From assembly GCA_903943975.1 (NCBI GenBank), contig CAJAQB010000010.1, positions 1 through 41,038 on the forward strand: DNA of 41,038 nucleotides, read 5' to 3'. Positions within the stretch are counted from its first letter, which is position 1; each line of letters begins with the position of its first letter. The notes under the pieces were generated by a model. That model made no database searches, was not told the DNA's origin, and saw only the letters and a list, made by a program, of their open reading frames with translations. The DNA is from Synechococcus lacustris. Lineage in GTDB: Bacteria > Cyanobacteriota > Cyanobacteriia > PCC-6307 > Cyanobiaceae. Below are positions 530 to 35,797 of the stretch, one piece after another. A program made the translations under genes and the position numbers.

Positions 530-703
530 ATGATCCGAATCGTGATCCAGTGGCAAGACCAATTTGGCCATTGGCAGCGCTTCCAGGAAAAACACAACCA
601 GGCCGATGCATACCGCACTGCTCAGGCCCGCGCCCGCAGCACAGGCAAGCGCCACCGCCTCGTCGATGAAGCTGGGCGACTGCTTGATCTGTTGGAGCCT
701 TAA
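530..703 (+). CDS. small conserved cyanobacterial protein (57 aa)
   Basis: An intact 57-codon frame from ATG 530 to TAA 701-703. It begins with a beta-strand-like 'MIRIVIQWQDQFGHWQRF' and continues with 'DAYRTAQARARSTGKRHRL', then ends 'GRLLDLLEP'. I recognise the pattern 'IQWQD..G.W......H...DA.RTA..RA..TGKRHRL' as a short protein frequent in cyanobacterial genomes and of unknown function. The aromatic and charged pattern is conserved-looking and not random. It is shorter than most gene-calling cut-offs, so it may be missed by others. Soluble and basic; a nucleic-acid-related role would be a guess. Confidence 0.72.
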   Translation: MIRIVIQWQDQFGHWQRFQEKHNQADAYRTAQARARSTGKRHRLVDEAGRLLDLLEP

Positions 704-761: not shown

Positions 762-1193
762 TCACCGCAGGCTTTCGCAAGCCACCCCACCCCCGTTGCC
801 ATCGAGATAGCTGTGTCCCTGCCGTAATAGCTCCTGGGCACGGGCATAGGAACCGATCTCCTTGCAGCGGTAATGGTGGCCAGAGGGACTGCTGCTGAAG
901 GTGCTTGGACTATTGCTGCCAATGGGCGTTGACCCACCCCGGCGGCCCCGCCGAAAATCCCAGGGTCTAGTGATGCCGCCTTCCTGCTGCCAAACGCCAT
1001 AGCGATGGCGGGAGGCGCGGTACTCAGCATCTAGATATTCCCTGGCATCGCATTGGCCTAGGTATTTGCGATAGGCAAAAGCCAGACCGTCCTCCACCAA
1101 CGCCAGGTTGATGTTGATGTCACTGATCACCTCAGCCACAGTGCGGCCGTACTTATCAATCGTTTGGGTATGCAGCGTCACCTCCCGGCCCAT
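762..1193 (-). pseudogene. thermonuclease-like (SNase) gene, 3' half with Excalibur-type tail
   Basis: The frame opens inside an SNase domain (first residues 'MGREVTLHTQTIDKYGR') and lacks the signal peptide, the first catalytic strand and the metal-binding region. The second half of the nuclease is present ('VEDGLAFAYRKYLGQCDA'). After a low-complexity linker comes a C-terminal 'YRCKEIGSYARAQELL' and 'LDGNGGGVACESLR', which matches the Excalibur calcium-binding motif pattern. The missing 5' part is 3.2 kb away at 4247-4630, and the two pieces share a 144-bp repeat. Fusing them across the repeat would restore a continuous secreted nuclease of about 225 residues. On its own this piece should be inactive. 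Confidence 0.8.
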
Positions 1194-1202
1194 GGCTAGG
1201 CG
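1059..1202. repeat. direct repeat copy A (SNase internal segment)
   Basis: This 144-bp segment reappears at 4250-4393 in the same orientation with about a dozen mismatches, counted by eye. Both copies encode the same stretch of the nuclease (from the residues 'MGREVTL' to 'KYL'). The two copies bound the c-di-GMP gene segment 1203-4249. Confidence 0.9.
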
Positions 1203-1441
1203 GCAACGTTGGGGTCATGGTTTGACGCAACTGCCTAAAACCAAAATAACTTCGGCTGGTCTGGCAAAACTTGCTATAAGACCATGCCAAAATTTGCTGG
1301 CTGCACAAGGCATCAAATATGCATCAAATATGCGTCAGCAGTTTTATGTAGTTCGCATTGGGATTTTTGGCTGCCTACAGTGAATGTGGATCATATATGC
1401 ATCGCTTGAGCGTGCCCCTTCATGCCCTTCTTTCGTGATTT
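1203..1441 (+). promoter_or_regulatory. AT-rich upstream region of the c-di-GMP gene
   Basis: About 240 bp with no convincing gene. It is clearly more AT-rich than the flanks and contains a short tandem direct repeat 'GCATCAAATAT' twice around 1310-1331. The promoter of the GGDEF/EAL gene presumably lies here, but no confident -35/-10 pair or ribosome-binding site can be fixed. An ATG at 1397 in the gene's frame runs into TGA at 1436. Confidence 0.4.
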
Positions 1442-4252
1442 GTGCCAGCGTCTTCAGGCCGCAGCGCCGGGATTGGTATATATATATTTGCCGTGCCTTT
1501 TATTTGTGGGGGGGGGGGGGGGGGGTTGTGGCGCCAATCTGAAATTAATGCCGAGACTCAACTTCGAACAAAACATATCAGTGAGCGGCTCTACGTCGAG
1601 GTGGCCAGTCTCTTTCAGCACCCCATATATGGCCTCAACGGTGCCAGAGGGGTATTTGCCACCAACGAAAATATAGGTCGCGCAGCATTTAAGGCCTATG
1701 TGGATTCCCGAGACCTTTCTCATGAATTTCCCGGTGTAAGGGGCTTTGCTTTCGCTTACCGTGTGCTGCGTTCAGATCTTAACGCCTTTGTGGCCGCCAC
1801 CCGAGCAGACGGTGCGCTGAATTTCGCGGTTAGCCAATTGGCCAACCAGAAGCACAATGATATGTACATCATTAAATATATTGAGCCTGCGAATAATAAC
1901 CCCAGGGCATTGGGCCTAGATATTGGCTCAAACCCAATGCTGCGGCACACGGTTCAGCAGGCCGTAGACAGCGGCAAGCCCAGCATGAGTGCACCCATCA
2001 CCCTGATGCAATCAAAACTGCAAACACCCGGCGCCTTGCTGATGTTACCAGTATATGCGAATGGCTCCCACCCCGCCAATTTGAGCGAGCGACGGGAGGC
2101 AGTTATTGGTGTGCTAGTTGCTCCGGTTGTGTTTGCAGAAATGTTCAAAAATCTACACAGCTCTGCCAAAGACCTAATGCATATCAAGATCTTCGAAAAT
2201 ACAGCTGGGAATCCAAGTAGGAGCTTGATTTTTGATTCATTAAAACAAACTGGAAAGCCTGATCCGCGCTTCTTGGCTGATGTTAAGTCTCTTCATGTTG
2301 CGGAACAACGGCTAAGTATCTTCGGGCGCGAGCTTACTGTGAAGGTGAGCTCCTTGCCAAGGTTCGAAAATGGCATTGATGTCTATTCCCCCTGGTTGAT
2401 ATTTGGCGGCGGCGCTATAGCCAGCGCTGCACTAGCTCTCTACCTAAAGCATCACCTGCGTAAATACAGCCTAGGCACAAAGCTTGTTGAGCAGTGTTCC
2501 CTTGATCTCGCCCAGGCAAATGAATCTGCCGAGCGAGATCGCCACCGCTTGTTACTCGCCACTCGCGCCGGTGGAGTTGGCATATGGGACTGGGATGTTG
2601 TGAATAACCTATGGACCTGGGACGAGAGTATGTATGCGCTCTATGGGATTTCGGCTGATCAATTTAGCGGTGAAGATGATGCCTGGCTTAATAGCTTGCA
2701 TCCAGATGACAGGCTGCAGGTTAATACCGCAGTCCAAGCTGCCTTAGAAAGCGGCAAATTCGACTCAGAATTTAGGGTTATTTGGCCAGATGGAAGTATT
2801 CACAATATCCAGGCCCATGGCAACTTGATCAGAGATTCTGAAGGCAAGCCGCTGCGCATGATCGGAACGAACTGGGATGTAACTCAACGAAAAATATCTG
2901 AAGCCAAGATTGAAGAGCTGGTCTACTTCGATCCCTTGACTTCATTGCCCAATCGACGTTTATTTGTAGATCGCTTCCAAAGAGCTCTCGTTTTGAGTGA
3001 TCACAACAATCGACATGGTGCTTTGTTATACATTGATCTGGATAATTTCAAGGCCGTGAACGATATTAGAGGTCACGACATTGGCGATATAGTGCTGCAA
3101 GCAGCAGCCCAAAAACTCAGCGGCTGTATTCGTGCTTCAGACACGCTTGCGCGCATCGGTGGAGATGAATTCATAATCTTAATTGAAGATTTAGGCAACA
3201 GTCCCTCTGAGGCTGCCCTGGCAGCAGAGATTGTTTCTGAGAAAATATTAGCTAATTTTAGCCCAGGTACGATAGTGACTGCTTACAACTGGATTGGAAC
3301 GGTTAGCATCGGCATTGCTTTGTTTCATGGATCTCAAGAAAATGATGTAGAGGAAATTATAAAGCAAGCTGATTTGGCTCATTATCAGGCAAAGGCAGAT
3401 GGGCGCAATCGCCAGCAATTTTTTGACACACAGATGCAAGAGGCTATCCATGCCAAATTCAGCATGGAACAAGCGATATGCGAGGCCCTTGAAAATAATT
3501 GGCTTGAGTTATACTATCAGCCCCAGTTTAATAGGAATAAGTGTCTTGTTTCAGCGGAAGCCCTCCTGCGTCTAAAACATCCAATTCATGGCATTATTCA
3601 GCCAGCTGAGTTTATTCCTATAGCGGAATCCAGCGACCTTATTTTGCGGATTGGTGATTATGTATTGACTGCTGCCTGCGCGCAACTGGCGCTTTGGGCG
3701 AAATGGCCGGCAGCCGCCCAGCTCGCCCTTGCAGTAAATTTCAGTGCCAAACAATTTCAGCAGGCTAATTTTGTTGACAAGGTTATTGGTGCGATTGAGA
3801 AATCCGAGGCAAATCCAGGATTGCTAACTATAGAGTTGACTGAAAATATTTTTCTTACAAATAAGGAGGATGTGGCGGCCAAAATGCAGGAATTAAAAAA
3901 TTATGGTGTTAGCTTTTCAATTGATGACTTTGGAACTGGCTACTCTTCTTTGTCCTGCTTGAGAGTATTGCCATTTGACCATTTAAAAATTGACAAATCC
4001 TTTGTTTGTAATATACCGCAAAGTGAAGTTAGCCGCAGTCTAATCAGGTCTGTAATTTCGATCGGAATCAATCTTGGACTGGAGGTAATTGCCGAAGGTG
4101 TGGAGACAGAAGAGCAACTCACTTTTCTAATCGAATCAGGTTGTGAAAATTTTCAGGGGTATTTATTTAGTCGACCATTGCCATTGGCTGAGTTCAGCGC
4201 ATTGGTTGATCTTTCAAGCAGTACTGTACCGACTGGCCGTGGAGGTTCATAG
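1442..4252 (+). CDS. CHASE-PAS-GGDEF-EAL cyclic-di-GMP turnover protein
   Basis: A 936-residue hybrid sensor that should make and/or degrade c-di-GMP at the membrane. Counting from GTG 1442: an N-terminal hydrophobic stretch interrupted by a glycine run, a periplasmic CHASE-like domain (about 60-300, including 'FPGVRGFAFAYRV'), a membrane segment (about 317-337), PAS plus PAC (about 370-485), GGDEF (about 495-655) and EAL (about 670-925). GGDEF is intact (573-577) with an inhibitory-site RASD five residues before it. The EAL domain keeps 'AEALLRL', 'ELTEN', 'DDFGTGYSS', 'LKIDKS' and 'AEGVET', so both activities are possible. The start is uncertain: an 18-G run at 1508-1525 lies within the first 30 codons, and ATG 1422 is in another frame. 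The gene is AT-richer than its neighbours and sits between the two halves of a nuclease gene, which suggests insertion. Confidence 0.9.
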   Translation: MPASSGRSAGIGIYIFAVPFICGGGGGGLWRQSEINAETQLRTKHISERLYVEVASLFQHPIYGLNGARGVFATNENIGRAAFKAYVDSRDLSHEFPGVRGFAFAYRVLRSDLNAFVAATRADGALNFAVSQLANQKHNDMYIIKYIEPANNNPRALGLDIGSNPMLRHTVQQAVDSGKPSMSAPITLMQSKLQTPGALLMLPVYANGSHPANLSERREAVIGVLVAPVVFAEMFKNLHSSAKDLMHIKIFENTAGNPSRSLIFDSLKQTGKPDPRFLADVKSLHVAEQRLSIFGRELTVKVSSLPRFENGIDVYSPWLIFGGGAIASAALALYLKHHLRKYSLGTKLVEQCSLDLAQANESAERDRHRLLLATRAGGVGIWDWDVVNNLWTWDESMYALYGISADQFSGEDDAWLNSLHPDDRLQVNTAVQAALESGKFDSEFRVIWPDGSIHNIQAHGNLIRDSEGKPLRMIGTNWDVTQRKISEAKIEELVYFDPLTSLPNRRLFVDRFQRALVLSDHNNRHGALLYIDLDNFKAVNDIRGHDIGDIVLQAAAQKLSGCIRASDTLARIGGDEFIILIEDLGNSPSEAALAAEIVSEKILANFSPGTIVTAYNWIGTVSIGIALFHGSQENDVEEIIKQADLAHYQAKADGRNRQQFFDTQMQEAIHAKFSMEQAICEALENNWLELYYQPQFNRNKCLVSAEALLRLKHPIHGIIQPAEFIPIAESSDLILRIGDYVLTAACAQLALWAKWPAAAQLALAVNFSAKQFQQANFVDKVIGAIEKSEANPGLLTIELTENIFLTNKEDVAAKMQELKNYGVSFSIDDFGTGYSSLSCLRVLPFDHLKIDKSFVCNIPQSEVSRSLIRSVISIGINLGLEVIAEGVETEEQLTFLIESGCENFQGYLFSRPLPLAEFSALVDLSSSTVPTGRGGS
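1508..1525 (+). repeat. homopolymeric G18 tract inside the 5' coding region
   Basis: Eighteen consecutive G residues encode a glycine run at the end of the first hydrophobic segment of the c-di-GMP gene. Runs this long slip readily during replication. With 18 G the downstream frame connects to GTG 1442; with 19 or 16 G it would connect to ATG 1422 (MPFFRDLCQRLQ...). The exact length may also be a sequencing artefact. Confidence 0.9.
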
Positions 4253-4630
4253 GTATTTATGATAAGTATAGGCCTGACCGTCCTCCACCATTGCCAGGTT
4301 GATGTTGATGTCACTGATCACCTCAGCCACGCTGCGGCCGTACTTATCAATCGTTTGGGTTTGCAGCGTCACCTCCCGGCCCATGGCTAGGCGCTGCTGC
4401 AGGTAGTTGCGGGCCTGCTGGCCGTAGGGGGCCTGGGCCATTTCGGGGGCATCAATGCAAGCCAGCCGCACGGTCAGCTTTTTTGTTCCCTGCTGCACCC
4501 GGATGGTGTCGCCATCACCAATAGAGAGCACCGTGGCGCGGCTGGTTTCAGCAAGGGCCGCTGCTGGACTGATGCCCTGAGCCGATAGCAAGCCAATCAA
4601 CAGCAGCAGGCAGGCCCTAGGCATAGCCAT
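4247..4630 (-). pseudogene. thermonuclease-like (SNase) gene, 5' half with signal peptide
   Basis: It begins with a secretion signal (about residues 1-27, hydrophobic 'ACLLLLIGLLSAQGIS' then AALA), followed by the first part of an SNase/thermonuclease domain: 'VLSIGDGDTIRV', 'VRLACIDAPEMAQ' and 'YGQQARNYL'. These contain the acidic metal ligands and one of the catalytic arginines. The frame stops straight after 'TYHKYL', where a full-length homologue continues. The missing C-terminal part is found at 762-1193 beyond the inserted c-di-GMP segment. The stop codon overlaps the antiparallel stop of the c-di-GMP gene, placing the breakpoint at about 4250. A truncated exported nuclease would be expected to misfold. 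Confidence 0.82.
4250..4393. repeat. direct repeat copy B (SNase internal segment)
   Basis: Partner of 1059-1202, same orientation, roughly a dozen differences. The left edge coincides with the TAG stop codon of the c-di-GMP gene; the right edge ends at 4393, after which the two copies share nothing obvious. Confidence 0.9.
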
Positions 4631-6633: not shown

Positions 6634-7166
6634 CCTTCACTGCATCTAAAACGCATCGGCCGCTTCTGGTCGGTGCGGGTAGGCATCAGGCATCGCGCCT
6701 TGGCAGTGCAGGCATCGCACGATGAGCTGCTAACAAAAGGTTGACCAAGGTCCTGCCTCACCCAGCTGGCTAGGGCCGGCAGCAGCAGCAGGAGCTGGTC
6801 GGCGTAACGCCGGCGCTGGCTGAGCAGACCTGCCGCTGGCGAGCGGGGGGTGGCGTAAACGGTTTCGGTTTCTTCCCGCAGCAGGGATGTGTTGAAGGCG
6901 ATCACATCCGCCTTCAGCAGCGGCGCATCACCGCTAGCTGCAACAGAGCCGGTGATTGGGCCGGAGCGTGATTGTTGCTGATCGATCAGGGCCACCGCAT
7001 CGACCAGGGCCCTAGCGCTGAGCACCCCAGCTGGATGTTGCCGTTCCAGATCTGCCATGGTGCGGCTGATCGCATCGAGGCATGGCACCGTCGCTGGTAA
7101 GGCCAAGCATTGGCGGATTGCTTCTTGATCAGTTGCTTGCCAAGACCCGGCTGGACTGGAAACCAT
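6603..7166 (-). CDS. hypothetical protein, possibly degraded
   Basis: A 187-codon frame whose middle part ('LDAISRTMADLERQHPAG', 'LSARALVDAVALIDQQQ', 'RRRYADQLLLLLPAL') has the composition of a real helical protein, whereas the last 45 or so residues are rich in Cys, Arg and Ser and look out of frame. That suggests a frameshift near 6740. I do not recognise the family. Position, upstream of a TA pair and a BREX relic on the same strand, makes an accessory origin likely. Confidence 0.35.
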   Translation of the reverse strand: MVSSPAGSWQATDQEAIRQCLALPATVPCLDAISRTMADLERQHPAGVLSARALVDAVALIDQQQSRSGPITGSVAASGDAPLLKADVIAFNTSLLREETETVYATPRSPAAGLLSQRRRYADQLLLLLPALASWVRQDLGQPFVSSSSCDACTAKARCLMPTRTDQKRPMRFRCSEGWRGSALSCS

Positions 7167-9023: not shown

Positions 9024-9953
9024 CTATTTGCCAGCCCCAATAGATTCATTCAGATTGGCTATGCATGAGTGACTTCCGCCCAATCCCTTGGCTTGATACA
9101 GGGCTAGATCGGATTTGAGCATCAGTTCCCTTATGGTTCTGCCGTGTTCAGGGAAAAAGGCAGTGCCTATGCTGAGTGATGTGATGTGATTTATGCCATC
9201 TATATGCACGGGTTTTCTTGCTTCTGCTAAAATGCGGCTAGTAAGACTCTTTGATTCAGCCGCCGTAGCAATCGAGGGGGCTAAGAGCAGGAATTCATCG
9301 CCACCAAGTCGGGTCAGGGTGTCTGATTTGCGCAAACAGGCCTTGATGCGGGCAGACACTTCCACAAGGAGCTGATCGCCAGCGAGATGGCCGTGGTAGT
9401 CGTTGACATGCTTGAAATTATCAATATCTATGATTGTGATGGCGAAGCTACTTTTGTTGCGAATGGCCACTGCAATTGCATTTTCTATCCGATCCTCAAG
9501 CAGCAAGCGATTTGGCAGGCCAGTGAGGTGATCATGGGTGGCGAGGTGCTCAGCCTGCTCCAGGGCCTGCTGGAGCTTTAATTCAGTCGCTTTTAGCTGG
9601 GATACGTCTGCAACATGAACAATGATTCCTTGTACTTCCCCACCTTTGATGAAGGGTGTATAGGTGGTAAGTGAATGGCGAATGATTCCATCTGGGCATC
9701 GAATGTCTCGTTCAAACGTCTGCGTTGCGCCATGGTAGGCCGCCTTGATATATGGCAGGTTTAATTCGTAGATCTCGCCTAATAAAGCTTCTAATGTGCC
9801 GCCAATTATTTGCTCAATTGAAATGCCAAACCAGTCAAGGTAAGCCGCATTTGCGTAGGTGCAGATTTGATTCTTGTCCCAAAAAGCTACCAGCGCATCT
9901 ATGCTGTTAAGAATCTCTAGAAGTAGGGGGTTTTTGTTCAACTGGCTATCCAA
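9024..9953 (-). CDS. PAS-GGDEF diguanylate cyclase
   Basis: A 309-residue soluble protein with an N-terminal PAS domain (about 10-120, including 'LVAFWDKNQICTYANAAYLD') and a GGDEF domain (about 135-300, beginning 'THDHLTGLPNRLLLEDR'). The active-site GGDEF (217-221) is intact and an RKSD inhibitory site precedes it by five residues, so product-inhibited c-di-GMP synthesis is expected. No membrane segment. It is AT-richer than its neighbours, like the other GGDEF gene at 1442-4252. It stands alone, and the output may include the PNAG-type cluster 5 kb downstream (inference). Confidence 0.9.
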   Translation of the reverse strand: MDSQLNKNPLLLEILNSIDALVAFWDKNQICTYANAAYLDWFGISIEQIIGGTLEALLGEIYELNLPYIKAAYHGATQTFERDIRCPDGIIRHSLTTYTPFIKGGEVQGIIVHVADVSQLKATELKLQQALEQAEHLATHDHLTGLPNRLLLEDRIENAIAVAIRNKSSFAITIIDIDNFKHVNDYHGHLAGDQLLVEVSARIKACLRKSDTLTRLGGDEFLLLAPSIATAAESKSLTSRILAEARKPVHIDGINHITSLSIGTAFFPEHGRTIRELMLKSDLALYQAKGLGGSHSCIANLNESIGAGK

Positions 9954-35570: not shown

Positions 35571-35644
35571 GTCCGGCCCCGGCCGTGGGCCCGACCATCG
35601 GCGAGCGGAACGGTTGGGGCGAAAGCCGATGGCTATGTTAAGCC

Positions 35645-35768
35645 CGGCAGGTCCTGGCTCCGGGCCGGGAAACAACGAGGAAAGACGGTGCGGGAGTTCT
35701 TCCCCATTCCGTCGCTGTCCCGCAACTGTGATGGGCTCTGCCCTCAGTCAGAACACTCGCTCCTGCCG
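35645..35768 (+). promoter_or_regulatory. cobalamin riboswitch upstream of cbiMNQO
   Basis: A closing stem CGGCAGG (35645-35651) pairs with CCTGCCG (35762-35768). Between them are the conserved elements GGGAA, the GGTGCGGGAGTTCTTCC block, CGCTGTCCCGCAACTGTGA and the B12-box-like GTCAGAACACTCGCTCCTGCC. Adenosylcobalamin binding would shut down expression of the cobalt importer 29 bp downstream. Confidence 0.9.
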
Positions 35769-35797
35769 AACCAACCATCTCATCTGCGAGGTACAGA

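Follow-up and report, generated by a model that had tools for sequence, protein, structure and literature searches.

Insertion-duplication (single-crossover, Campbell-type) leaves two truncated copies of a gene that have an internal segment in common, with foreign DNA between them. The locus described here, which lies in a window of 41,038 nucleotides (the whole stretch of DNA analysed), has the same layout: two parts of a nuclease gene flank an inserted c-di-GMP gene. It differs in that its repeats, at only 92% identity, have the look of two older lineages, and in that the insert is without vector-like functions. The nuclease is of the SNase-Excalibur type (PF00565 + PF05901), which is about 219-240 aa long and is intact, widespread and often multicopy in the relatives of this cyanobacterium. 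The window copy resembles the nucleases of the family in sequence, but it is split, and each part is incomplete.

The inserted gene leads to a second group of described systems. For Helicobacter canadensis, phase-variable genes were recognised by a tract of over 9, a frame shift and a position near the 5' end, and by these criteria the window gene would be a strong candidate (PMC2823697). Like the G-tract genes of that species it has a long tract near its 5' end and a frame-shifted state; unlike them it sits in a cyanobacterial host, is a signalling gene and has a tract known from one assembled length. Known phase variation of c-di-GMP enzymes proceeds by inversion or epigenetic switching, for example at the invertible promoters of pdcB and pdcC in C. 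difficile and with a fimbrial-operon PDE in E. coli (PMC11868660). These cases would have the stochastic control of c-di-GMP enzymes in common with our candidate, but they involve no homopolymer. Should the G tracts prove to slip, c-di-GMP enzymes of a cyanobacterium would be subject to phase variation by simple repeats, for which we found no report in the open-access literature.

With a probability of about 0.6 we regard the locus as the remains of a multicopy gene for a secreted nuclease, in the middle of which a c-di-GMP gene from elsewhere has come to lie. The features on which this reading is built are collected in Table 1.

Table 1. Positions of the features discussed; plain numbers refer to the window.
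Feature	Position	Strand	Remarks
Small ORF, 57 aa, adjoining copy A	530..700	+	81% aa conserved in two sister species
Copy A, nuclease 3' part	762..1193	-	ORF of 143 aa; SNase-Excalibur type; alignment to intact relatives
Repeat copy A, 144 bp	1059..1202	-	
nadC start remnant, 20 bp	1199..1218	-	ATG and nearly six further codons
Inserted segment	1203..4249	+	nadC 5' remnant, intergenic region, whole c-di-GMP gene
Conserved N-terminus of c-di-GMP gene	1422..1507	+	MPFFRDLCQRLQAAAPG...; matches MRFLPDLRQRLQAAVPG... of the C13 copy
CHASE-PAS-GGDEF-EAL frame	1442..4252	+	936 aa from GTG
Run of 18 G	1508..1525	+	length sets the reading frame
Copy B, nuclease 5' part	4247..4630	-	ORF of 127 aa; alignment to intact relatives
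Repeat copy B, 144 bp	4250..4393	-	provides TAG stop of c-di-GMP gene
Broken nuclease copy, 3' part	C1:7640-7930		
Broken nuclease copy	C1:20922-21376 (L095)		keeps about nine codons of the start and about a dozen of the end, by inspection
Broken nuclease copy	C19:329589-329802		
Eight G/C tracts	window 1508-1525; L173:3889-3901; L174:1619-1632, 1881-1894; L175:3867-3880, 7007-7024; L128:988-1001; L133:993-1007		
Tract at c-di-GMP gene	window 1508		inserted CHASE-PAS-GGDEF-EAL gene
Tract at c-di-GMP gene	C13:300380		PAS-GGDEF gene; directly before a GTG
Tract at c-di-GMP gene	C3:63506		PAS-GGDEF remnant
Tract at c-di-GMP gene	C3:60366		PAS-HD-GYP gene behind kaiB-like gene; HDIG and GYP motifs present
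Fifth tract	C13:284388		5' part of CHASE histidine kinase

The split nuclease and its repeats

A preliminary description of this DNA had assigned the 5' and 3' halves on the minus strand to one SNase-like gene, and the Pfam profile confirms this assignment: copy A matches positions 36-107 of 107 and copy B positions 1-80, showing that a complete SNase fold is absent from both. Copy A has no signal peptide and lacks the N-terminal strands with most of the catalytic residues, while its C-terminal end gives a weak Excalibur match (20.2 bits, just under the cut-off). Copy B carries the catalytic motifs behind an N-terminus that reads like a signal peptide, and is truncated after KYL. A secretion signal and an Excalibur domain are therefore not found on one protein, and neither half is able to be a complete nuclease. 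The sequence has 60-80% identity to the intact nucleases of many relatives.

The direct repeat at the two broken ends had been described with about a dozen mismatches; we count exactly 12 (132/144 identical, 92%). The two repeat copies are spaced by 3191 bp, and their match in a search against the own genome (E = 3.5e-54) is far above chance. The mismatches are clustered, with 7 of the 12 lying within the 17 bp that adjoin the point where the 5' half is broken. Because the repeat joins A and B without a shift of frame, a crossover there would yield a frame of 225 codons, close to the length of the relatives' intact nucleases, so that the continuous frame predicted earlier is indeed obtained by computation.

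In the whole genome we found no intact SNase-Excalibur nuclease; every copy found is broken, three of them in addition to A and B. In the copy at C1:20922-21376 the middle of the nuclease is replaced by a VapC-like ORF. None of the three has repeats of the 144-bp kind. The remaining intact SNase genes, at C19:227073 and C21:15329, have no Excalibur domain. No tRNA or RNA elements were found adjoining the nuclease copies. We also considered the nuclease as a mobile cassette and rejected this, since the nuclease copies within single genomes of relatives have 0.3-2.2 kb in common, flanks included, which fits ordinary segmental duplication.

In the relatives examined there were neither tandem full nucleases nor an intact nuclease at the exact site; in two genomes of the same genus (G002 and G003) the small ORF adjoining copy A is followed by another gene, which is not a nuclease. 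The sister species G003 has another nuclease that is split by an unrelated gene (contig C242, L192:587-1851), showing that interruption of this nuclease recurs. There, a 5' remnant and a 3' part enclose a gene on the opposite strand, which from its sequence we take to be probably DUF1810-like; about 45 codons are lost, and the split position differs from that in the window. The split arrangement of the window is thus not conserved in the sister species. In another genus, the start of a contig (G209:C23:1-330; L054 / L120) holds a nuclease 3' part that is 92% identical to copy A, with the match extending about 34 bp past the stop, while the majority of copies there have about 75% identity to A; a recent transfer is possible. 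The contig edge falls at the codons at which copy B breaks off.

The inserted c-di-GMP gene and its sister beside nadC

The insert is, as had been noted, AT-richer (G+C 0.469 vs 0.610 for the window) and holds a single large ORF on the plus strand, in which a domain search found CHASE, PAS, GGDEF and EAL domains. The TAG stop of this gene at 4250-4252 is formed by the three bases with which the repeat begins, in agreement with the earlier observation that stop codon and repeat edge coincide. The RxxD inhibitory site and the GGDEF, EALLR, DDFGTG and EGVET motifs are kept, and by its domains and catalytic motifs the product is predicted to be a bifunctional CHASE-PAS-GGDEF-EAL enzyme. No sigma-70-like promoter was found upstream of the gene. 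Among 400 genomes of the cyanobacterial family the gene had no match above 36% aa identity, and a scan of genome contigs with the protein gave distant sensor proteins only. Phage sequences contained no DNA similar to the locus, and similarity to plasmid sequences was limited to 84 bp of the EAL part. The insert carries no transposase or recombinase, and there are no inverted repeats at its edges.

At the left edge lies the nadC remnant, 19/20 identical to the intact nadC on contig C13 of the same genome. A 9-bp stretch of imperfect microhomology to the nuclease (GGCTAGGCG / GGCTTGGCG) overlaps with this remnant. At the end of C13 the intact nadC faces another copy of the inserted gene, which is decayed and is the insert's nearest relative. 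The sister copy spans C13:362742-363771 / C16:1-180 (also L096:7892-9772, L097:1-183); contigs C13 and C16 overlap by exactly matching 138 bp and probably join. It is without the CHASE, PAS and GGDEF parts, and window positions 1502-3431 are unmatched there. Because the insert still starts with 20 bp of nadC, we conclude that it was copied from a nadC-linked locus and not vice versa. In their EAL part the copies differ at 22% of sites, with a dS of about 0.99 and a dN/dS of 0.16, showing that they split long ago and under selection. For the nuclease repeats dS is about 0.16, from few sites; the c-di-GMP paralogues hence predate the split of the nuclease repeats, unless the repeats were homogenised. 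A donor in a related strain would be a simple reconciliation of the two dS values.

Origin of the arrangement

On whether one nuclease gene or two entered the locus, the C19 broken copy gives a hint. Polarised with 16 relatives as reference, its 86-bp overlap with A and B contains three informative sites: at site 61 it carries a derived base common to B, and at sites 118 and 122 derived bases common to A. Sharing derived bases with both repeats, it indicates that two distinct nuclease copies probably contributed, and these few sites point to separate lineages, an A type and a B type, that recombined. The evidence leans toward two paralogues (or two alleles) over the duplication of one gene. 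The preliminary description had left the choice between an insertion that duplicated the segment and tandem paralogues; the paralogues gain ground here, while the tandem full nucleases do not appear in the relatives. Its suggestion of an old event or of paralogues finds support in the two dS values and in the derived sites of the C19 copy. The same split fixed in relatives, which would have spoken against its proposal, is not what G003 has: there the nuclease is interrupted elsewhere, by a different gene. The nadC remnant, the additional broken nucleases here and in the sister species, and the 18-G tract had gone unnoticed in that description.

The history that we propose for the wrecked nuclease begins with a CHASE-PAS-GGDEF-EAL gene, divergent from nadC, which the lineage would have gained from outside. 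A copy of this gene would have been cut inside codon 7 of nadC and near its own stop codon, and joined into nuclease sequence, on the left side across the microhomology. The donor may have been the nadC-linked locus of the same or of a related strain. The site patterns suggest that the nuclease ends came from two already different copies, either two paralogues or one allele already in place and one that arrived, in which case the 144 bp would be the overlap of two truncated copies and not a target-site duplication. The joining itself may have been either a replacement between two copies or an insertion-duplication with a foreign allele. Today both nuclease parts are incomplete, and the nadC-linked sister has lost its CHASE-PAS-GGDEF part. 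The run of 18 G may act as a switch that turns the gene on and off by slippage, may be a recently acquired lesion, or may have been given a wrong length in the assembly. Three points count against this history: the case for paralogues is built on three polarised sites in 86 bp; the relatives show neither two tandem nucleases nor an intact one at this exact site; and a replacement between copies needs proximity, yet nuclease copies on one contig within the family lie tens of kb apart (30 kb or more). We read the split nuclease as a relic of ordinary genome decay. It shows a multicopy, dispensable family that decays and takes in unrelated genes, also in the sister species.

Insertion with duplication of a single gene is clearly less probable, although it is the most probable of the alternatives. 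A single crossover could have brought in a circle on which the c-di-GMP gene was accompanied by an internal nuclease piece of 144 bp, or a template switch during replication could have led out of the nuclease and, on return, to a point 144 bp upstream; both routes give one 3'-truncated and one 5'-truncated copy that share exactly the repeat. Such a layout is the textbook product of insertion-duplication, and in the window the 5' half indeed ends with the repeat and the 3' half starts with it. The microhomology at the left edge fits as well, and a single event would be enough. After template switching, however, the repeats would begin identical, yet each keeps ancestral bases that the other has lost, and a third copy shares derived bases with both, at three sites in all. 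A circle with a foreign allele would lift this objection.

An assembly artefact, meaning either that contigs were falsely joined where nuclease copies had collapsed or that the length of the G tract is in error, we consider improbable. The genome does contain several similar nuclease pieces, contigs of this genome and of G209 end in repeats, and the lengths of G tracts are difficult to assemble. But 12 differences between the repeats, a nadC remnant of its own and 22% divergence of the EAL part do not fit a simple repeat collapse. More improbable still is a reversible switch, in which recombination between the repeats would delete the c-di-GMP gene and restore the nuclease. The common frame and the near-normal length of the crossover product would suit it, but 144 bp at 92% identity is a poor substrate for recombination, the other broken copies have no such repeats, and a recombinase, inverted repeats and a conserved layout are all absent; moreover, the split nuclease of G003 could not be restored in this way after losing its codons. 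A transposon target-site duplication was rejected because there is no transposase, there are no inverted repeats, and the repeat is too long and too divergent.

Two candidate breakpoint signals were also discarded. CTAG / CCTAGG occurs at three edges, but the motif is not over-represented, so we treat this as coincidence. A hotspot at the KYL codons (the end of B, the start of C1:7640-7930 and the contig edge of G209) is suggestive, with too few cases.

G/C tracts at c-di-GMP genes

The inserted gene has a long tract near its 5' end whose length sets the frame. In the assembly the 18 G put the conserved N-terminus, starting at ATG 1422, into another frame than the CHASE domain, and the frame from this start stops after 84 codons. 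When reading frames were computed for tract lengths of 15-21 G, two of the seven lengths, 16 and 19 G, gave an open frame of 942-943 codons from the conserved start through CHASE-PAS-GGDEF-EAL. Because GTG 1442 offers an in-frame start at 18 G, an off state at this length is not certain.

Pattern searches of the whole genome found eight G/C tracts of at least 13 (13-18 long), where 0.4-0.8 are expected from composition. Four of the eight lie at the starts of c-di-GMP genes. Assuming 10-20 such genes, the probability of this placement by chance is about 1e-8 to 1e-10, a value that makes the case look too strong, as the grouping is post hoc. Another of the tracts lies upstream of a phycobilisome-linker-like gene. 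We tentatively propose, as a candidate mechanism that is possible but not the likelier outcome, that slippage in these tracts might switch cells randomly between signalling states.

Tracts of at least 13 G/C occur in 111 of 400 family genomes, usually few in each. A family-wide link of G tracts to signalling genes is unsupported: the ten tract-bearing loci of relatives included only one chemotaxis gene (CheB/CheR) and a single gene that matched EAL weakly.

The C14 tract within L175:3660-3900 falls in the last codons of the kaiB-like gene, just before the PAS-HD-GYP gene and beside a kaiC-like gene; its slippage could alter the end of KaiB or couple the two genes. Elsewhere in the window, a second GGDEF gene (9078-9542, minus strand) has no G tract near it, a HicA toxin gene lies near the contig edge (110-334), and a cobalamin riboswitch (Rfam RF00174) is located at 35632-35780 on the plus strand.
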